From: Helicobacteraceae bacterium | GTDB lineage: Bacteria > Campylobacterota > Campylobacteria > Campylobacterales > SZUA-545 | NCBI GenBank assembly: GCA_031258155.1 | Contig: JAIRNH010000052.1 | Coordinates: 1 to 41,485 of the forward strand | DNA: 41,485 nt | Reading direction: 5' to 3' | Shown here: one piece after another, positions 258 through 41,485 of the stretch | How positions within the stretch are numbered: position 1 is the first letter of the stretch | How the letters are laid out: each line of letters opens with the position of its first letter | Program-made: the position numbers and the translations under genes | Notes under the pieces: model-generated | Told to the model about the DNA's origin: nothing | The model's database searches: none | Seen by the model: only the letters and a program-made list of their open reading frames with translations

Positions 258-1643
258 TTAGTTTTCCGTATTATCAACCTTGTAGCCGCCGCCAAGCGCT
301 TTATACAGCTCTACTTGAGCGGCGATGTTTTCGGATTCCGCGCCGTTTAGGTTGAGCTGCGCGGTAAGCAGATCGGTTTCCGCGTCGATCACGGCTATAT
401 AGTCGCTGTAGCCCGCTTCGTATTGCTCTTTGGTAAGTTTCAGCGCTTGGCGCAGATATGACGCCTGCTCCTTGAGTTGCGTAAGGCGGGCGGCGGCTTG
501 CTCCCTGCGGCTTAGCGCGTCTTTTACCTCGCTGAAGGCGGTTGCCACGCTCTTTTGGTACTGCGCGATCGCGATCTCTTTCGCCGCGCGCGCCGAATCG
601 ACCTGCGCGCCAATGCGCCCGAACGAGAAAATCGGCAGATTGATCCCGATCCCAGCTCTCGCGCTTTGCGACTCGCTATCAAACAGATCGCCAAGCTCGG
701 CGCTCCCAAATCCAGCCGTCCCCGTGAGCGAAATGGAGGGCAGATATTGCGCTCTAGCCGATCCGATCGAGTAGTTAGCCGCCTTTAACTCCTCTTCGGC
801 GGCTTGAATGTCCGGACGGCGCAAGATCAGATCGCTAGGCAGATTGGCGCTTGGAAGCGCGCTGGAGGGAAATCTGCCATTAAGCTTGGCTTTTTCCTCA
901 AAAATCGCCTTAGGCGTTCGCCCAAGCAAAATAGCAAAAGCGTTCTGCGCCGCCTCTTTTTGGCGCTTAATATCGATTAGCTGCGCTCTCGTGCCGTTTA
1001 GATTCGCCGCTACCTGACTTAGGATCAGCTCGGTTAGCGCTCCCGCTTTGGCTTGCGATTTTCTAAGCGCGTAGGCTCGCTCTTTGCCCTGCAACATCTC
1101 CTCTATATCGCGCTCGTTGTAGGTCAGCGCGAGCAGAGCGTAATAACTCTCAATCGCGCCGCTGATCAGCGAAAGCCTGATCGACTCCTGCGTGGCTTGC
1201 ATAGCCAGCAGTTGCGAGAGCGCCGATTTTTTGCTATCGCCAAGCCTAGACCACAGATCAACCTCGTAACTAAGCGTTCCGCTCAAAGCGAAGCTGTCGC
1301 TATCGATAAACTTGGAGCTGTCCGTCGGATCGCGCCTCCATGCGCGAGCGCCTTCGCCCGAAGCCGAGAAATTCGGATAGCGCTGCGCCTTCGCCAACCC
1401 CAGAGCGGCGCGCGCGCGCGCCACGTTGCCCGCCGCGATCGCCAGATCGTAGTTGCGTTCTAAAGCCTCTTTTACGATCTCGTTGAGACTAGGATCGTTA
1501 AAACCCTCCCACCACGAATTGCCGATTTGCACGGCGTCGCTCGCGTTTGCGGGCAGTTCGTTTTTCGGCGCGACATAATTGGGCGCCAGCGAGCAACCGC
1601 AGAGAAAGAAAACGGTCGTCAATAATATAGAGAGGTTACGCAT
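258..1643 (-). CDS. outer-membrane efflux lipoprotein (TolC/OprM/CmeC-like, NodT family)
   Basis: This is the outer-membrane channel of a tripartite drug efflux pump, expected to extend through the periplasm as a trimer. The preferred start (complement of 1641-1643) gives a lipoprotein signal MRNLSILLTTVFFLCGC with the lipid-attachment Cys at residue 17. A start 27 bases upstream is open but would put a charged stretch before the signal. The body, about 460 residues, has the two repeated OEP domains typical of the family, including the motif SANLPSDLILRRPDIQAAEE near the middle. The start overlaps the end of the pump gene by 8 bases, so translation is probably coupled. It is the last gene of the adaptor-pump-channel operon. 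Confidence 0.93.
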   Translation of the reverse strand: MRNLSILLTTVFFLCGCSLAPNYVAPKNELPANASDAVQIGNSWWEGFNDPSLNEIVKEALERNYDLAIAAGNVARARAALGLAKAQRYPNFSASGEGARAWRRDPTDSSKFIDSDSFALSGTLSYEVDLWSRLGDSKKSALSQLLAMQATQESIRLSLISGAIESYYALLALTYNERDIEEMLQGKERAYALRKSQAKAGALTELILSQVAANLNGTRAQLIDIKRQKEAAQNAFAILLGRTPKAIFEEKAKLNGRFPSSALPSANLPSDLILRRPDIQAAEEELKAANYSIGSARAQYLPSISLTGTAGFGSAELGDLFDSESQSARAGIGINLPIFSFGRIGAQVDSARAAKEIAIAQYQKSVATAFSEVKDALSRREQAAARLTQLKEQASYLRQALKLTKEQYEAGYSDYIAVIDAETDLLTAQLNLNGAESENIAAQVELYKALGGGYKVDNTEN

Positions 1644-4600
1644 TGGCGCCCTTTTTGAACAATTTCGCAAAAAAGTCTCCTATCTTGCCCATATGGACAT
1701 AAAACAACGGGATGTAAAAGACCGCGATAAAGGTCGCGGCGAGCATACCGCCGATCACGCCCGTGCCGATCGAGTGGCGAGAGGCTTCGCCCGCGCCGGA
1801 GCTAATAGCGAGCGGCAACACGCCCAGCATAAACGCGAGCGAGGTCATAATGATCGGGCGAAATCGCAGTTTCGCCGCCTCGATCGCCGCCTCGACGTGT
1901 CCGTAACCTTCCTCGCGCTTGTTCATCGCAAACTCGATAATAAGAATGGCGTTTTTCGCCGCAAGGGCGATCAGCACCACAAGCCCTATCTGAAAATAGA
2001 TGTCGTTGTTAAGCCCTCTAAGCGCCACGGCGCAAATCGCGCCGAATACGGCAAACGGCACCGCCGCGACGACGGCAAGCGGCATTAGCCAGCGCTCGTA
2101 TAGCCCCGCTAGGATTAAAAACACCAGTATTACGCCAAATACGAAGGCTTGGATGCCCGTGCCGCTCATCGCTTTTTCCTGATAAGAGCTACCAGACCAC
2201 GCGAGCGTGTAACCTTCGGGCAATATCTTGGCGGCTATCTCCTCGATCGCCTCGATCGCCGCGCCGCTGCTGATCCCCGCTTTTGGCTCGCCCGTGATCT
2301 GCGCGCTATTGAACAGGTTGAAGCGTTGCACGACGTCCGGTCCCAACACGCGATTTACCGTTACTAGAGCGCTAAGCGGGATCATCTGACCCGTATTGGA
2401 TCGCACAAACACGTCCTCGAGATTTTCGGGGCTTTTTCTGAAATCGCCCTGCGACTGCATCATTACGCGAAAGGCGCGGGCATACATATTGAAGTCGTTG
2501 ACGTAATAGGCGCCAAACGTCGCCTGCATCGCGCCGAAGAGATCGCCTACCGATACCCCTAGCATTTTCGCCTTGTCGCGGTCAAGCTCGATCTGATATT
2601 GCGGCGTATCGACGTCGATTGTGCTTCGCACCTGCGTAAGCGACGGGTGTTGATTAGCCTCTCTGACAATCTCGTTTATATATTTCGCCAGATCGCGGAC
2701 GCCGCCGCCCGTGCGATCTTGCACGTGCATCTCGAAGCCGCCGCCAATGCTTAGCCCCATAATAGGCGGCGGGTTTATAGCGAAGATCAGCGCGTTGGGA
2801 TTGCGCATAAACTGCCCGATAAACTGCCCCGCCAACGCCTGCGAATGCTGTTCGGGTCTTGTGCGCTCCGACCAATCGATAAGGTTGATAAATCCAGCGC
2901 CCGCGCTAGGTTTAAGCGCGTTAGACATCATATCGATCCCGCTCATCAGCGTAGCGTATTGCACAAGAGGGTTTGCCGCCGCTATATCGGCGACTTCGTC
3001 CATCACCTCTTGCGTGCGCTCCAGCGACGAGGCGGGAGGCAGATTGGCGATCACCATCAAACCGCCTTTATCCTCCATTGGCACCAGCGCGCCCGGCACG
3101 CTGTCAAAGAGCCTGTAGGCGATATACATCAGCCCGATAAAGATCAGCACGAAAACCGCGCCGAAGCGCACCGTCTGACGAACCCCTTCGGAAAAATGCT
3201 GCGTAATCCACATAAACGCGCGGTTAAACAGACGAAGCGGCAGTATCGGCTCCGGATCGTGAGCGCGTAGCAGCACGCCGCACAGCGCGGGGGTAAGCGT
3301 CAGCGCCACGAAGCCGGAGATAATTACGCTAAGGACGATTGTCGTGGCAAACTGCTTATACATTTCGCCCGTGAAACCGCCCATCAGCGAGACGGGGATA
3401 AATACGGCGCACAACGTCAGCACGATCGCCACGATAGGACCCGTAACCTCGCTCATCGCTATGACCGTCGCCCGTTTGACGCTAAAATCGGGGTGCGTTC
3501 TAAGTATCCGCTCGACGTTCTCGATCACGATAATCGCGTCGTCCACCACGATCCCAATCGCCAACACCAGCGCGAAAAGCGTCAGCAGGTTGATCGAAAA
3601 ACCTAGCGCGTAAAGTCCCGCGAACGCGCCGATGATCGACACCGGCACGGCGAGCATAGGTATAAGGGTGGCGCGCCAATTTTGTAAGAAAAAGTAGATG
3701 ATTAGCATCACAAACAGAAGCGCCTCGACAATCGTTTTCATCACCTCGTTAATCGAAACGCGCACAAACTTTGTCGTGTCGTAAGGGATTACGTAACCGA
3801 TCCCTTCGGGGAAGTTCTTGCTCAGGTTTTCCATAACGGCGGCTACCGCGTCGGCGGTCTCCAGCGCGTTCGCGCCCGATTGCAAAAAGATGCCGATCGG
3901 CACGGCGGGCTGCTTGTTTTGTCTGGCGTTGAAGCTGTAGTTTTGCGCGCCTAGCTCGATCGCGGCTACGTCCTTTAGCCGCAAAAAGGTTCCGTCCGCG
4001 TTGGCTTTTATAATGATATTGCCAAAACTTTCGGGGTCGGCGAGTCGCCCTTGCGAGACGATGGTGTAGGTGTACATCGCCGCGCCGTTTTCAAGCGGCG
4101 CCTGCCCAAATTGCCCCGGCGCGTATTGCGCGTTTTGCTCGCGGACGGCGTTTATCAGATCGGTGGGCGTAAGAGAGTATTTTGCCAAGAGATCGGGGCG
4201 CAGCCAGATTCGCATAGAGTAGTCTTTGCTGCCAAAAATCATCGCGTCGCCCACGCCTTTGATCCGTTTTAGATCGTCTAGCACGTTTAATAGCGCGTAG
4301 TTGCTGATATAGATGGCGTCGTAGCGATCCGGATCGCCGCGCATAGCGATAATCTCCAGCATAGTGTTGGTGCGTTTGCGCACCGTTACGCCCTGTTGCT
4401 GCACCTCTTGGGGCAGACGGGAGATCGCGCCTTGGACGCGGTTATATACGTTGATCGTCGCGTCGTCGGGATCGGTTCCCGTTTCAAAAAAGACGCTGAT
4501 CATCACCTCGCCGCTCGCCGACGCGCTCGACTGCATATAGATCATATTCTCCACGCCGTTGATCGCCTGCTCGATAGGCGAGGCGACGGTGGCGGAAGCG

Positions 4601-15177: not shown

Positions 15178-16500
15178 TTGTTAATCTTCGATTTGCTGTG
15201 CGGCGAGCTGAAAAAGCAGATTTCAAGCGACGAATTTGAACGCTACGTCGCGCCGCTTAAATTATTAGAAAAGCATTTAAAGTCCGATCTTGCCGTCTTT
15301 GAGGCGCCAAATCCTTATATAGCGTTATGGGCGCAGAGCAAATACGCGGCAAAAATAGCCGATTTTTTCGAGAAAGAGAGCGGCGTTCGACCAGCCGTAC
15401 GCATAACGGCAAAGAACTTGGAACCAAAAAAATATCCGCAAGCGACGACAAAAGGCGACGGGATAACCATCAAAAGCGCGACGTTGAATTTAAGCTATAC
15501 CTTCGACAGCTTCGTCGTCGGCGCGTCGAACAAATTCGCTTACACCGTCGCTAAAGCGGTCAGCGAAAATCTGGGAGCGGCTTATAATCCCGTAGTTATA
15601 TTCGGAGGCGTGGGTATAGGCAAAACGCACCTGCTGCAAGCCATAGGAGCGAGCGCAAGCGCGCAGAAAAAGACCATTATATACCGCCAATGCGAACATA
15701 TGCTAAATGATTTTACGGAACATATGAGACTAAAAACGATGGATCGCTTCCGCGAGCAATATCGAAATTGCGACGCGCTACTAATTGATGATATACAATT
15801 TCTTAGCGGCAAAGAGGGATTGCAAGAGGAGTTTTTTAATACCTTTGAAGAGCTTCATTCGCGCAAAAAACAGATTGTGTTAACGGCGGATCAGCCGCCA
15901 AAGATGATCGCGGGGCTTACCGAACGACTAAAAAGCCGTTTTATGTGGGGTCAATTAGCCGAAATCCAACCGCCGGAGCTTGAAACCAAAATAGCTATCA
16001 TCAAAACAAAATGCGAAATACTTAAAATCTCGCTAGATAAAGAAATTATCAATCACATCGCAAGCCGCCTCGACAATAACGTGCGCGAAATCGAAGGCGT
16101 GCTTAGCAATATAAACCTATATTGCACCATGTTGGCGCGCCCCGTTTCGCTGGAGCTTGTCAAAGACATACTTAAAAACTACCTTAAAGACAAGCGAGAA
16201 AACGTTACAATAGATGATATAACGCAAACCGTCGCCAAAGAGATGAACTGTAAAATATCCGAAATCAAGAGTAAATCACGCGTGCAACAGATCGTGGCGG
16301 CGCGTAAAATGGTCATCTACCTAGCCAGAAAACTCACCCAAAACTCAATGCCGCTTATAGCGGAATACTTTGGAATGAAAGACCACTCCGCGGTAAGCCA
16401 CGCCTACCGAGTCATAACGCAAATCATCGAAAACGACGCCGATTTTAAGCTAAAAATAGACGCTCTAGCCGGAAAAATAACGGAATCAAAAGAAACCTGA
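15178..16500 (+). CDS. dnaA: chromosomal replication initiator protein DnaA
   Basis: 440 residues. Domain I is at about 1-85. The AAA+ module has Walker A GGVGIGKTHL (~143) and Walker B LLIDDIQFLSG (~201). Domain IV carries the signature KDHSAVSHAYRVI (~400) for binding DnaA boxes. The start is TTG at 15178. No ATG or GTG is in frame nearby, and purine-rich AGAGGCGGAGAGG lies upstream. The first residues LIFDLLCGELKKQISSDEFE fit DnaA proteins of Campylobacterota. It opens the dnaA-dnaN-gyrB cluster. Confidence 0.98.
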   Translation: MLIFDLLCGELKKQISSDEFERYVAPLKLLEKHLKSDLAVFEAPNPYIALWAQSKYAAKIADFFEKESGVRPAVRITAKNLEPKKYPQATTKGDGITIKSATLNLSYTFDSFVVGASNKFAYTVAKAVSENLGAAYNPVVIFGGVGIGKTHLLQAIGASASAQKKTIIYRQCEHMLNDFTEHMRLKTMDRFREQYRNCDALLIDDIQFLSGKEGLQEEFFNTFEELHSRKKQIVLTADQPPKMIAGLTERLKSRFMWGQLAEIQPPELETKIAIIKTKCEILKISLDKEIINHIASRLDNNVREIEGVLSNINLYCTMLARPVSLELVKDILKNYLKDKRENVTIDDITQTVAKEMNCKISEIKSKSRVQQIVAARKMVIYLARKLTQNSMPLIAEYFGMKDHSAVSHAYRVITQIIENDADFKLKIDALAGKITESKET

Positions 16501-16572
16501 ACAAAAATTTTGGTAAAAAGATCGTATAATCCAGAATTAAAACAAATCGCTCAACAAGAGAGTCGGCGCGCG

Positions 16573-16613
16573 TTTTTCACGTTTTCACGCCGCCTACTAC
16601 TGCTACTAAAATA
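16573..16613 (+). other. oriC unwinding element: two DnaA-box-like sites followed by DnaA-trios
   Basis: In the dnaA-dnaN gap (16501-16630), TTTTTCACG (16573-16581) and TTTTCACGC (16582-16590) are tandem DnaA-box-like sites in the same orientation. After a short GC-rich stretch come the triplets CTA CTA CTG CTA CTA AAA (16594-16611). This is the box/GC spacer/DnaA-trio arrangement described as the basal unwinding system in Bacillus subtilis and found between dnaA and dnaN in many bacteria. I infer that strand opening of the chromosome origin occurs here. Confidence 0.75.
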
Positions 16614-16630
16614 CAAAGAAAGGAACTTGA

Positions 16631-17698
16631 GTGAAGTTCGTTATAGCAAAAGCGGAGCTTGAAAACACCCTATCTACCTTACAACCATTTTTAGAAAAAA
16701 AAGACAACTCGCTTATCACGGCGCACGTTCTCTTCGAGACTAAAAACGACGAGCTAAAGATACGCGCTACCGACAACGAAATAGGTCTAGTTATCAAAAC
16801 TACGGAATTCGACCTAGAAAGCGAAGGTTCTTTTACGGTAAACGGCAAAAAAATCCTAGACGTGGTCAGGGCTTTAAACGACGATCAAATATTGTTGGAG
16901 GGAAATGCGGAATCGCTTCAGATCAAGCAAAATCGCTCAAAATACAAACTTCCGTCGTTTAATCCAGATCTATTTCCGCATTTTAATATGGAAACAGGCG
17001 ATGGCGAAGTATCGATCGATGGTAAAAAGCTGATTCAAGCTTTAAGAAAGATTACGCCCGCGATCGCAAACGCTAATCCAAAATTTGAGTTAAACGGCGC
17101 ATTGATCGACGTTCGCGCGAGTTCAATCAACGTCGTTGCAACCGACACAAAACGGTTAGCGCTCTACAAAATTGAACAGAGTTCGGATAAAAACTATCCT
17201 ATTATTATTCCAAAAAAAGCGATAGCCGAAATGGTAAAAATATTTACCTCCGACTTAAAGCTGTATTACGACGAAACCAACTTAACAATTACCAACGATA
17301 ACTATTTCTTTTACACTAGAGTAATAAACGGTAAATTTCCGGATTACGAGCGAATTGTTCCGCGAGAACTTAAACGATCGTTCTTGTTTAACGTAAATAA
17401 GTTTATAGACGCGATAAGACAGGTAAGCACGCTTTCGACTGAAATTAAAATTACCTTTGAAAGCGGTTTAATAAGGTTTGAGACTCTTAACGAGAGTATC
17501 GAAGAGGCAAAAACGGCTATCGAGACTGATATTTCGGTAGAAGATCCTATTTCGATCGCGGTGAATAGCAGATTTATTCTTGATTTTCTTACACAAACGC
17601 AGAGTGAACAGTTTGCTATTGGCGTTAACGACTCGTCTTCGCCGTTTATTTTACGATCGGAAAATTTTTCCACGATTGTAATGCCAATCATTTTATAA
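16631..17698 (+). CDS. dnaN: DNA polymerase III beta subunit (sliding clamp)
   Basis: 355 residues, standard length, three clamp domains. Typical segments are FVIAKAELENTLSTLQPFLE at the N-terminus, LNGALIDVRASSINVVATDT in the middle, and the C-terminal SPFILRSENFSTIVMPIIL, which fits the last strand IMPM-like motif. The start is GTG at 16631, preceded by AAAGGAAC at good spacing. As in other Campylobacterota it lies between dnaA and gyrB. It is more AT-rich than the flanking efflux and alaS regions. Confidence 0.97.
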   Translation: MKFVIAKAELENTLSTLQPFLEKKDNSLITAHVLFETKNDELKIRATDNEIGLVIKTTEFDLESEGSFTVNGKKILDVVRALNDDQILLEGNAESLQIKQNRSKYKLPSFNPDLFPHFNMETGDGEVSIDGKKLIQALRKITPAIANANPKFELNGALIDVRASSINVVATDTKRLALYKIEQSSDKNYPIIIPKKAIAEMVKIFTSDLKLYYDETNLTITNDNYFFYTRVINGKFPDYERIVPRELKRSFLFNVNKFIDAIRQVSTLSTEIKITFESGLIRFETLNESIEEAKTAIETDISVEDPISIAVNSRFILDFLTQTQSEQFAIGVNDSSSPFILRSENFSTIVMPIIL

Positions 17699-17716
17699 AT
17701 ACAAAACTTGGGTTAA

Positions 17717-20035
<2,319 letters not shown>

Positions 20036-21756: not shown

Positions 21757-21865
21757 AAAGGCTTCTTCCCAGATGGCTGCGGCGCACAGTCTAGCAAGCT
21801 GGGCTGCTCGGTTCCCCGCCTGACCCGTTTTCTTTTAAAACCGCCGCACAGGTCTAAGAAGAAGC
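21757..21865 (-). ncRNA. ffs: signal recognition particle RNA (4.5S-like)
   Basis: The minus strand contains the SRP core: GGTCAGG, then GGGGAA, then GAGCAGCC (complement of 21802-21825), the hallmark of the Ffh-binding helix and GNRA-type tip. The outer arms pair perfectly (GCTTCTTC, complement of 21858-21865, with GAAGAAGC, complement of 21761-21768), enclosing GCGGCG/CGCCGC. A TATAAT -10 box is found on the minus strand at 21871-21876, six bases before the predicted 5' end. TTTT follows the closing stem, so the RNA supplies its own terminator. Ends are estimated to within a few bases. Confidence 0.9.
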
Positions 21866-38695: not shown

Positions 38696-38932
38696 CTAAA
38701 TATACGAATTGGTTTGCGCGGCGCGGGGTTCCTCGTCGGTTTGGGCGATCTTTTGCAACGCTTCATAATGCCGCCGCGCCTCTTCGAGCGCCTTCTCTAG
38801 CTGAAAGCCCTGCATTACCTTTTTATATAGCGCGGGACGGTTCTTTTTCCAGTTGTGGAGGGTTTTTACATCGACGCCCAAGAAGCCCGCCATATCTCGA
38901 TTGGTCATTGCCGCCGTCCCTTTTGGGCGCAA
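38696..38932 (-). CDS. small HTH DNA-binding protein, candidate regulator of the adjacent peptide locus
   Basis: 78 residues from TTG at 38932, or 70 from ATG at 38908, which has GGGAC upstream; I cannot decide between them. The helix-turn-helix is TNRDMAGFLGVDVKTLHNWK (~10-29), a form seen in small Xre- or transposase-like HTH proteins. A charged helix follows (LEKALEEARRHYEALQK). It is transcribed away from the Cys-rich precursor gene, and the 131-base space between them holds three evenly spaced operator-like repeats. Regulation of that operon is inferred from position only. Confidence 0.75.
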   Translation of the reverse strand: MRPKGTAAMTNRDMAGFLGVDVKTLHNWKKNRPALYKKVMQGFQLEKALEEARRHYEALQKIAQTDEEPRAAQTNSYI

Positions 38933-38964
38933 TTTACAAAAGAAGCTCTGATGAAATCAACAGC

Positions 38965-39037
38965 GGAATTATTCCCTGTTTTAAGCCTATTATAAGGAAT
39001 AATTACATATCATTTACGCCAGAGAGGGAATAATTCC
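38965..39037 (+). promoter_or_regulatory. three 11-bp near-palindromes spaced exactly 31 bp apart
   Basis: GGAATTATTCC (38965-38975), GGAATAATTAC (38996-39006) and GGAATAATTCC (39027-39037). Starts are 31 bases apart, about three helical turns, so bound dimers would lie on one face of the DNA. They fill the space between the small HTH gene and the precursor gene. The last copy ends 15 bases before the ribosome site AAGGAGG (39052-39058). Confidence 0.75.
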
Positions 39038-39063
39038 TCTCCAACCCACATAAGGAGGTTGCT

Positions 39064-39369
39064 GTGGCAACTGGATCTAAAGACGAAACGACCAATGTCG
39101 GTCGTCGCAAGTTTTTAAAGGTTGCCGCCGTTAGCGCGGCTACGGCGGCGGGCTTTCTGGCGACCGCGACGTTTAACGCCAAAGAGGGCGTGAAAAGCTC
39201 CGATTCGACAAAGGGTTTAGGAAAAGGCTACGGCGAAGGCGCGTCGCTTGTCGCTACGTGCGGAATGAGCTATAGTTGCGGCGGAGGCGGCGGTCAATGC
39301 GGAATGAGCTATACTTGCCGTGGCGGCGGGGGAACGTGCGGAATGAGTTACTCTTGCTCTGGCAGTTAA
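39064..39369 (+). CDS. Tat-signal Cys-rich RiPP precursor peptide
   Basis: 101 residues from GTG at 39064, with AAGGAGG 5 bases before it. The N-terminal part is a twin-arginine signal: GRRKFLKVAAVSAATAAG (Arg14-Arg15). A Gly/Ser/Lys linker (~40-64) follows, and then the core: CGMSYSC (66-72), GGGGGQ, CGMSYTC (79-85), RGGGGT, CGMSYSC (92-98) and a short tail. The repeat period is 13 residues with six cysteines. A radical SAM/SPASM gene starts 5 bases after the stop. Repeated short Cys motifs beside such an enzyme are typical of RiPP precursors, where Cys sulfur or a side chain is crosslinked. Combination with a Tat leader implies folding or modification in the cytoplasm before export. I do not recognise a named family. 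Confidence 0.85.
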   Translation: MATGSKDETTNVGRRKFLKVAAVSAATAAGFLATATFNAKEGVKSSDSTKGLGKGYGEGASLVATCGMSYSCGGGGGQCGMSYTCRGGGGTCGMSYSCSGS

Positions 39370-39373
39370 AATT

Positions 39374-40693
39374 ATGCTACCTAAACTTGCCGACGGGATT
39401 TTTCATTTTGAAAAGTCCGAGAAGCAGCTATTTTTAGTTCCCGATCGCCCCGATTGGATAGTCGTTAACACAAACGGCGCGATTTTGCTTTTCGCTTGCG
39501 ACGGGACTCGCAACGAGGAGGATATTATCGCGTCGTTTGGCTTGAGCGATCAGGCTCGTTTGGACGCAAAAAAGCTGTTTGCGCGGGCGCGAGAGCGCGG
39601 CGTTTTGCAAAGCGAGGATCAAGGCGGCGATACTTCGCTCGCCCCCGCGTCGCGCAAACCAACCGGCGTAACGCCGCTAAGAACCGTGCATATCGAAATG
39701 AGCGACGGCTGCAATTTGCGCTGTAAATATTGCTACGCAAAATGCGGCAAATCCTCCAATATGATAAGCGCCGAAACGTTGGATAACATTCTCGACGAAG
39801 TCGGCGCGATTTCTGATTTTGTCGAATTTGTTCTCTCTGGCGGCGAACCGCTGTTAAATCCGCATACGTTAGACTTTGCCGAAAAAGCGGCAGCGGCAGG
39901 CGATTTTGTTCATCTGCTTACCAACGGAACGCTTATCGATTCCGACAAGATCGCCAAACGTATAGCCGCCTCCGCGAAATTAGTCAAAATCAGCATAGAC
40001 GGCTCGACGGAAGCGATTCATTCGATTACGAGAGGCAAGGGCAACTTTGACAGAGTAATACGAGGCGCAAATCTGTTGATCGACGTCGGCGCGAACGTAA
40101 CGATCGCAATGGTAGTAACTAGCAAAAACAAAGACGATATCGCCGCTATGAGCGAGCGTTGGGGCGGGCGTTTGAACTTCCAGCCGCTATTTCCCGCGGG
40201 GCGCGGCAAGGGGCGATCGGATTTAGCGATTAGCGGCGGAGAATATTACGGCGCGATGGCGGCGGTAAGAGGCGTAGCGCCAATGGCAAGAGTCGGCGCG
40301 ACGCTTGAGTCTTTGCGCGGCAGAGGCGTAAAGAAATGCGCGTTAGCCGATCGAGAGATCAGCATATCGGCTACAGGCGACGTCTATCCGTGCCAATTGC
40401 TTCACGCGCCCGAATTTCTGGCGGGAAATATCCGCGAGCGCCCGCTTAGAGAGATCTACCGCGAAAGCGACGCACTGAAAAGAGCGAGGGGCGTTACAAT
40501 CGATACGCTTGAAAAATGCTCGCGTTGTCCGATTCGTCTGCTCTGCGCCGGCGGTTGCCGCGCTAGAGACTACTACGAAGTTGGAAGCATAGAGAACGTG
40601 GGAGAGTTTTGCGAATACGAACAACTTGCGTTTATCAACGCTTTGTTTGATAATTCGGAATTAGCCGATATGGCAAGCGAGGAACGACAATGA
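39374..40693 (+). CDS. radical SAM/SPASM peptide maturase with an N-terminal PqqD-like domain
   Basis: 439 residues. Residues ~1-85 look like a PqqD/RRE fold (VNTNGAILLFACDGTRNEED) that would hold the precursor leader. The radical SAM cluster is Cys113-x3-Cys117-x2-Cys120 in CNLRCKYCYAKCGK, with LSGGEPLLNP and KISIDGS following. The SPASM domain carries seven cysteines: 322, 340, 382, 385, 391, 395 and 413 (spacing C-x17-C, then C-x2-C-x5-C-x3-C-x17-C), enough for two auxiliary clusters. Such enzymes make thioether or C-C links in RiPPs. The ATG has no strong ribosome site and probably depends on coupling with the precursor gene. Confidence 0.92.
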   Translation: MLPKLADGIFHFEKSEKQLFLVPDRPDWIVVNTNGAILLFACDGTRNEEDIIASFGLSDQARLDAKKLFARARERGVLQSEDQGGDTSLAPASRKPTGVTPLRTVHIEMSDGCNLRCKYCYAKCGKSSNMISAETLDNILDEVGAISDFVEFVLSGGEPLLNPHTLDFAEKAAAAGDFVHLLTNGTLIDSDKIAKRIAASAKLVKISIDGSTEAIHSITRGKGNFDRVIRGANLLIDVGANVTIAMVVTSKNKDDIAAMSERWGGRLNFQPLFPAGRGKGRSDLAISGGEYYGAMAAVRGVAPMARVGATLESLRGRGVKKCALADREISISATGDVYPCQLLHAPEFLAGNIRERPLREIYRESDALKRARGVTIDTLEKCSRCPIRLLCAGGCRARDYYEVGSIENVGEFCEYEQLAFINALFDNSELADMASEERQ

Positions 40694-41013
40694 AAAGAGC
40701 GATGCAGAGCGCGAGAATATGCGCGGCGATCCTGCTCGCAATCTCAATCGCTCGCGCCGATTGCGAAATGGAAGGCGTCGATAACTGGAAAACGACAGAC
40801 GGGCAAAGTTTGCTGTTGTATCAAAACGACAAGGCGCTCTGCCTAATAGAGTTAGACGTTTATTTCTGCGGGCTTAGCGGCGGCTTTACCAATAAGGCGG
40901 AGATTATTTTTACGGGCGCGTCAATCAAACGCGATTCAAAAATTATCATTGACGGGCATGTTTGCGATGTTTCCAAAGCAGAGCGCGTTACATTGTTTAA
41001 AATTGAAAAATAA
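40690..41013 (+). CDS. small secreted four-cysteine protein of the peptide locus
   Basis: 107 residues. A Sec signal (~1-23, ICAAILLAISIARA) leaves a mature protein of ~84 residues with Cys25, Cys51, Cys60 and Cys92, likely two disulfides. It is mostly beta by composition (QSLLLYQNDKALCLIELDVY, KIIIDGHVCDV). Its ATG overlaps the maturase stop (ATGA), so it belongs to the same operon. I recognise no family. A periplasmic partner, receptor or protector for the exported peptide is a guess from context. Confidence 0.8.
   Translation: MKRAMQSARICAAILLAISIARADCEMEGVDNWKTTDGQSLLLYQNDKALCLIELDVYFCGLSGGFTNKAEIIFTGASIKRDSKIIIDGHVCDVSKAERVTLFKIEK

Positions 41014-41485
<472 letters not shown>

Follow-up and report, generated by a model that had tools for sequence, protein, structure and literature searches.

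A probable sactipeptide-type RiPP cassette pairing a tandem-repeat, Tat-signal precursor with a radical SAM/SPASM maturase in a Helicobacteraceae bacterium

Gene content of the locus

The window analysed herein is a 41,485 nt stretch of DNA from a Helicobacteraceae bacterium (contig JAIRNH010000052.1), and all coordinates below refer to it unless a locus is named. Positions 38696–41013 harbour a repeat-bearing precursor gene and the radical SAM maturase gene behind it, together with a divergent gene on one side and a small overlapping ORF on the other:

38696–38932, minus strand: divergent HTH gene that probably regulates the cassette; a 47 % identical gene occupies the same place beside the cassette of genome G336
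38965–39037, no strand assigned: array of three operator-like sites GGAATWATTCC (at 38965, 38996 and 39027) with an exact 31-bp spacing
39052–39058, plus strand: Shine–Dalgarno sequence AAGGAGG of the precursor, identified by sequence
39064–39369, plus strand: precursor gene, 101 aa, GTG start; homologous repeat ORFs lie directly 5′ of related maturases
39103–39120, plus strand: twin-arginine motif R14-R-K-F-L-K19 of the precursor Tat signal (~residues 1–37)
39259–39297, plus strand: core unit 1, CGMSYSCGGGGGQ
39298–39336, plus strand: core unit 2, CGMSYTCRGGGGT
39337–39366, plus strand: core unit 3, CGMSYSCSGS, the C-terminal end of the precursor
39374–40693, plus strand: radical SAM/SPASM maturase, 439 aa
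39374–39613, plus strand: N-terminal PqqD-like winged-helix domain (probable RRE), maturase residues 1–80, from an AlphaFold2 model and a full-length structural match to CteB
39710–39733, plus strand: CxxxCxxC of the radical SAM [4Fe-4S] cluster, C113-x3-C117-x2-C120
40337–40612, plus strand: SPASM domain with seven invariant Cys (C322, C340, C382, C385, C391, C395 and C413)
40690–41013, plus strand: small Sec-type secreted protein, 107 aa, with an ATGA (4 nt) overlap with the maturase

A first-pass annotation, made from the sequence alone, had described these coordinates, the precursor with its three-copy repeat and the motifs of the maturase, all of which held against sequence and domain matches. 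It had also counted the product of the last ORF, described as a Sec-secreted four-Cys protein, as a component. Whilst the ORF is real, as is its Sec-like signal followed by four Cys, its membership of the system failed: it has no family match and no homologue in 15 family genomes or a 298-genome phylum sample, and it was dropped on those grounds.

Within the precursor, GRRKFLK is followed by a hydrophobic stretch, and three copies of CGMSY[ST]C, joined by GGGGGQ and RGGGGT, begin at residues 66, 79 and 92 and so recur every 13 residues exactly. A triple motif of this type was absent from all six frames of 200 order-2 Markov sequences built from the window (0/200). The first unit (residues 63–76) aligns weakly with positions 21–35 of the streptosactin model NF050037 (E 0.024), and the leader additionally scores 28 bits with TIGR02811 (formate dehydrogenase region TAT target), whose cut-off of 48.45 it does not reach.

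Distribution and conservation of the gene pair

A scan of genome contigs for maturase relatives returned 47 loci. The close maturases, which share 36–57 % identity with that of the window, belong to the Acidobacteriota (L009–L015) and Bacteroidota (most of L016–L042, and L047), with others found in the Armatimonadota (L030), one Treponema (L038) and an unassigned bacterium (L036). Many of the Bacteroidota carriers come from rumen or other gut samples. Searches of whole genomes contributed G336, which is of the same order as the window (L080/L087, 44 %), G850 (L091), and a further copy in G022 (L088). Each close maturase whose 5′ side is readable has a Cys/Gly-repeat ORF directly upstream (gap typically ≤ ~50 nt) or fused to it; this side could not be read for L039 and L040, which start at contig edges, or for L044, which is a fragment. 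L036 shows only its last unit (contig edge), L011 has approximately one and a half units, and the cores of L013–L015 and L091 are divergent and His-rich. In the Armatimonadetes locus L030 (2308–4482), nine units are in frame with the maturase within one reading frame, without a Tat motif. Beside all five distant homologues (25–29 % identity; L043, L045, L046, L048 and L049) no Cys/Gly-repeat ORF is present. The gene pair recurs in at least five bacterial phyla.

In the maturase tree the window groups with the Acidobacteriota (94/84), L087 stands beside that group (93/62), and the Bacteroidota form one clade (99/97). The DnaN encoded in the window has the Helicobacter pylori clamps of PDB entries 5fve, 4rki and 4s3i as its nearest matches by a wide margin, from which Campylobacterota is inferred as the window's phylum. 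Occurrence is patchy, both in the phylum (3 of 397 genomes at E 1e-30, counting the window and the more distant L081) and in individual families (4/201 genomes for the family of G022, 3/250 for that of G018). Horizontal movement of the cassette is considered likely, albeit not shown.

L088 is a second, diverged cassette copy in the Prevotellaceae genome G022, the two maturases being ~61 % identical. L044 (5989–6432) comprises only the C-terminal part of a maturase, with no repeat ORF found there, and is possibly a remnant. The cassette of G336 (L087, 5044–7511) lies downstream of a formate dehydrogenase-like gene. At L081 (G408; 1465–3203, minus strand), a more distant radical SAM gene of 35 % identity adjoins a different Cys/Gly-rich small ORF ending CSGCGCACFSSGGAGHGCGTHAGHWA; the two could conceivably represent another RiPP.

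The core units

The consensus unit across lineages is C-[GS]-x-[SAG]-x-x-C-x-G, in 1–19 copies. The 310 units counted, a set without the four acidobacterial precursors whose cores are divergent and His-rich, all keep the Cys-x5-Cys spacing and have Ser, Ala or Gly at residue 4 (310/310), and 309 of them have Gly at residue 9. The two Cys and a small residue 4 recur in nearly every unit. Residue 10, three positions after the second Cys, is more variable, being Gly in 166 and Gln in 111 units. At residue 5 most Bacteroidota units have Tyr, and other lineages show Ser, Gly, Thr or Ile. Immediately before Cys1, later units have Lys or Arg in 223 of ~248 instances in Bacteroidota and in 6 of 6 in L010, with Gln, Thr or Ile at this position in the window, L087, L030 and L038. 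Bacteroidota precursors mostly contain 12 units, the others having 10 (two loci), 19 (one) or 6 (two contig-edge loci).

For six close pairs, dN/dS of the precursor is 0.03–0.14, comparable to that of the maturase, and the Cys-rich ORF is conserved under strong purifying selection. Two results that had been named beforehand as refuting the RiPP reading, namely homologous maturases without such precursors and a Cys-rich ORF that is not conserved, were consequently not borne out, the former amongst close maturases with a readable 5′ side.

Leader sequences and the Tat motif

An RRx[FL] motif is carried by 25 of the 34 complete precursors: those of the window, L087, L010 and L088, plus 21 further Bacteroidota, such that all complete Bacteroidota precursors possess it. 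The nine without it (L009, L011–L015, L091, L038 and L030) derive from Acidobacteriota, Treponema and Armatimonadota. The culturable carrier Granulicella sp. L46 likewise has a precursor without the motif. Motifs were called by eye and by alignment; the Pfam and NCBIfam Tat models fall below cut-off for the window precursor (TIGR01409, 15.7 bits against 16.7; PF10518, E 0.021; both weak). The window precursor does combine what is expected of a Tat substrate, i.e. a twin arginine and a hydrophobic stretch, with TatC in the window's genome (G000). In the Treponema assembly, where the precursor has no Tat motif, TatC is absent. Co-occurrence with TatC was discarded as a general test, being uninformative (21 of 24 Bacteroidota carriers versus 160 of 201 genomes of one carrier's family). 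The initial proposal of cytoplasmic modification followed by Tat export is upheld with qualifications: the motif is widespread but not universal, and both bond type and dependence on Tat are inferred.

In Bacteroidota leaders, an LFFG[SA]K-like sequence that hardly varies forms the end of the hydrophobic stretch, and A-x-A often comes between it and the core; an [LVF]x[IM]G-like sequence occupies a comparable place in L010, L087, L030 and the Tat-less Acidobacteriota. This may be the element read by the RRE-like domain of the maturase, a tentative assignment.

The cassette had been said to lack both a protease and an ABC exporter. With regard to the protease this held, as none is found in the window cassette and none is conserved amongst the neighbours of relatives; nor is any immunity gene conserved beside the cassette. 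Six acidobacterial loci (L009, L012–L015 and L091) have a MacB-like permease gene convergent to the maturase. This was considered as a substitute exporter and dropped, being convergent and part of a wider synteny.

The maturase

The window maturase matches the Radical_SAM (E 5.9e-27) and SPASM (E 2.8e-9) domains, and none of its ten Fe–S Cys varies among 34 close relatives (34/34). The arrangement that marks a sactipeptide system, a radical SAM enzyme with a SPASM domain adjoining a Cys-containing precursor, is present. At the N terminus the PqqD sequence match is weak (E 0.23). In the AlphaFold2 model (pLDDT 89), residues 1–80 form strands and then three helices, the order of a winged-helix RRE, with a pLDDT of ~93. 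The best structural match of this model in the PDB is CteB, over the full length (E 5.4e-21), and the maturase family profile likewise returns CteB first (E 1.3e-46). The domain is thus predicted by the model to be a probable RRE. Folding of the L030 fusion gave a pLDDT < 50 for the precursor segment, too low to show the leader on the RRE.

Each of the four maturases scanned had StsB as its top NCBIfam model (177, 155, 206 and 183 bits, over 310–410 residues), about 18 to 70 bits ahead of the next model, and all four remain below the curated NF045574 cut-off of 625 bits. The nearest characterised enzymes are thioether-forming RiPP maturases.

The divergent gene and operator-like sites

The divergent HTH gene of the first-pass annotation is real, and the operator array and its conservation in G336 place it in the cassette in the window's phylum, with regulation itself inferred. 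Within the window's genome the HTH protein is without further homologues, and the nearest one outside the family is the divergent gene beside the G336 cassette. L087 in G336 has four such operator-like sites, also with 31-bp spacing. The triple array did not occur in any of 300 Markov sequences, and the paired operator pattern was detected in 4 of 397 genomes (G000, G336, G359 and G322). G359 has two sites only, and no repeat in any of its ORFs ≥ 60 aa; G322 was examined for operator sites only.

Comparison with characterised systems

Streptosactin is the nearest characterised system and has an equal Cys-x5-Cys spacing, although family cut-offs are not reached. It belongs to the GGG subfamily of streptococcal RaS-RiPPs (GggA/GggB; NF050037/NF045574), its family provides the best maturase match, and its bonds link Cys25 to Ser28 and Cys31 to Gly34 (PMC8172795). 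Beyond the spacing, both systems have a small residue at the first Cys+3 and a Gly run past the second Cys. Differences are equally evident. The window maturase scores 177 bits against the 625 required by NF045574, and its precursor 14.6 against 50 for NF050037, a model that did not appear among the hits of six relatives. The streptosactin core is a single 14-mer, as opposed to 1–19 units here, and it comes with an ordinary leader, a dedicated protease and Rgg-type regulators, where the present cassette has a Tat signal, another kind of HTH gene and no protease that is conserved.

Other systems resemble the cassette in single respects. SCIFF/CteB, amongst the ranthipeptides (TIGR03973/TIGR03974), offers the closest solved structure, N-terminal RRE and SPASM domain included, but the window maturase reaches only 79.7 bits for TIGR03974 (cut-off 425) and the precursor does not resemble SCIFF. 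Suisactin (QMP subfamily) has two sactionine bonds with one intervening residue (PMC13361665), a precedent for a Cys7 to Gly9 bond here, whilst its leader and context differ. In bufferins and oxazolins a signal peptide likewise replaces the typical leader of a Cys-rich peptide modified in the cytoplasm before export (PMC12452194), yet bufferins use an MNIO enzyme and Sec rather than a radical SAM/SPASM enzyme and Tat. TvgA/TvgB also involve a multi-unit repeat (TVGG) as the substrate of one radical SAM enzyme (PMC9062424), but with cyclopropylglycine chemistry, no Cys, and a dedicated peptidase and transporters.

Dedicated ABC exporters are the usual exit for RiPP precursors. A signal peptide that stands in for the typical leader has been called highly unusual, with Sec use in the natural host shown for bufferins only (PMC12452194), and a 2017 paper went no further than speculation on Tat as a display route for lanthipeptides (PMC5686179). 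No description of this precursor/maturase pair was found in the literature searched, most subscription journals being outside the reach of that search. The RiPP reading finds good support in the comparative evidence, and the cassette is probably a sactipeptide-type RiPP combining tandem units with a Tat signal; its chemistry, export route and role are inferred.

Proposed pathway

Sequence establishes the pairing of the genes, the conservation of the units, the Tat motif, the family of the enzyme with its cluster ligands, and the operator array. The reading that they favour, and which is likely, is a multi-ring thioether RiPP modified in the cytoplasm and then exported by Tat; the bond, its acceptors, Tat export, leader removal, regulation and role are inferred. 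The Tat signal of the GTG-started precursor would itself be the leader, or overlap it, with three Cys/Gly units following. In the cytoplasm the maturase, using SAM, its CxxxCxxC cluster and two SPASM clusters, would hold the leader via its RRE-like domain and link the side chains of Cys to backbone positions close by. On the model of streptosactin, α-thioether (sactionine) bonds appear most likely, from Cys1 to residue 4 (Ser/Ala/Gly) and, as a second bond in each unit, from Cys7 to Gly9 or residue 10. Gly9 is an alternative because suisactin allows a single intervening residue. Counting against the reading as a whole, residue 10, at which a strictly streptosactin-like bond from the second Cys would fall, is Gln in 111 units. 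Due to the two Cys in each unit, full thioether formation would be expected to give ~−4 Da per unit, and the −2 Da initially predicted is incorrect. Tat, which accepts folded substrates, would then export the finished peptide and general signal peptidase would remove the signal, so that neither a dedicated exporter nor a dedicated protease would be necessary. The divergent HTH protein would control both promoters via the 31-bp-spaced sites. As to biological role, a periplasmic or surface repeat protein is favoured, by inference, over a secreted bacteriocin.

A bolder reading, slightly less likely than not, is that of a multi-phylum RiPP class in which the Tat signal itself is the leader and a cytoplasmic radical SAM enzyme places as many as two dozen thioether rings, or more, on a repeat protein exported by Tat, giving a constitutive, ring-studded periplasmic or surface protein and not an antibiotic. 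If true, a Tat-signal RiPP family would explain how a cytoplasmic Fe–S enzyme finishes its work before export, would provide a protease-free display route for cross-linked peptides, and would supply repetitive substrates for the study of processive thioether formation.

Alternative explanations

The alternative that survives best, and remains possible, also has the repeat modified by a radical SAM enzyme, yet in a different way: by ranthipeptide (β/γ) thioethers, or at Tyr or Ser, in which case the Cys would stay available for disulfides or metal. In its favour, CteB, the best PDB match, makes a non-α thioether in SCIFF (PMC10352776), Tyr predominates at residue 5 of Bacteroidota units, and residue 10 is often Gln. 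Against this, the best family model, StsB, is an α-thioether synthase that leads the next by the margin given above, and Tyr is replaced elsewhere at residue 5, whereas both Cys and the small residue 4 are kept almost throughout.

It is unlikely that the repeats are cut after export into single, streptosactin-like antibacterial peptides. The Lys/Arg ahead of Cys1 in Bacteroidota and L010 would suit tryptic cleavage, and streptosactin does inhibit growth (PMC13361665). The window, L087, L030 and L038 have no such residue there, and neither a protease nor an immunity gene is conserved beside the cassette. Moreover, a fast-evolving bacteriocin is disfavoured because of the strong purifying selection and the usual count of 12 units in Bacteroidota.

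Less probable still, and very unlikely overall, is a Tat-exported Cys/Gly protein binding metal or acting in redox, on which the radical SAM enzyme acts only marginally or which its gene adjoins for some other reason. Paired Cys with Gly linkers could bind metal, and bufferins, which are exported Cys-rich RiPPs, chelate copper (PMC12452194); but the cross-phylum pairing with one maturase clade and the in-frame fusion of L030 tie the repeat to the enzyme. Lastly, a chance repeat ORF beside an unrelated radical SAM gene has no supporting point that could be found and is all but excluded, being already refuted by homology, conserved synteny, the shuffle test and selection.

Other features of the window

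Three features elsewhere in the window were recorded:

41415–41485: ~70 consecutive G that close the contig, most likely an artefact of sequencing or assembly
21763–21860, minus strand: bacterial small SRP RNA (48.2 bits)
15178–20035: dnaA, dnaN and gyrB in a row, a gene content that suggests likely proximity to the replication origin
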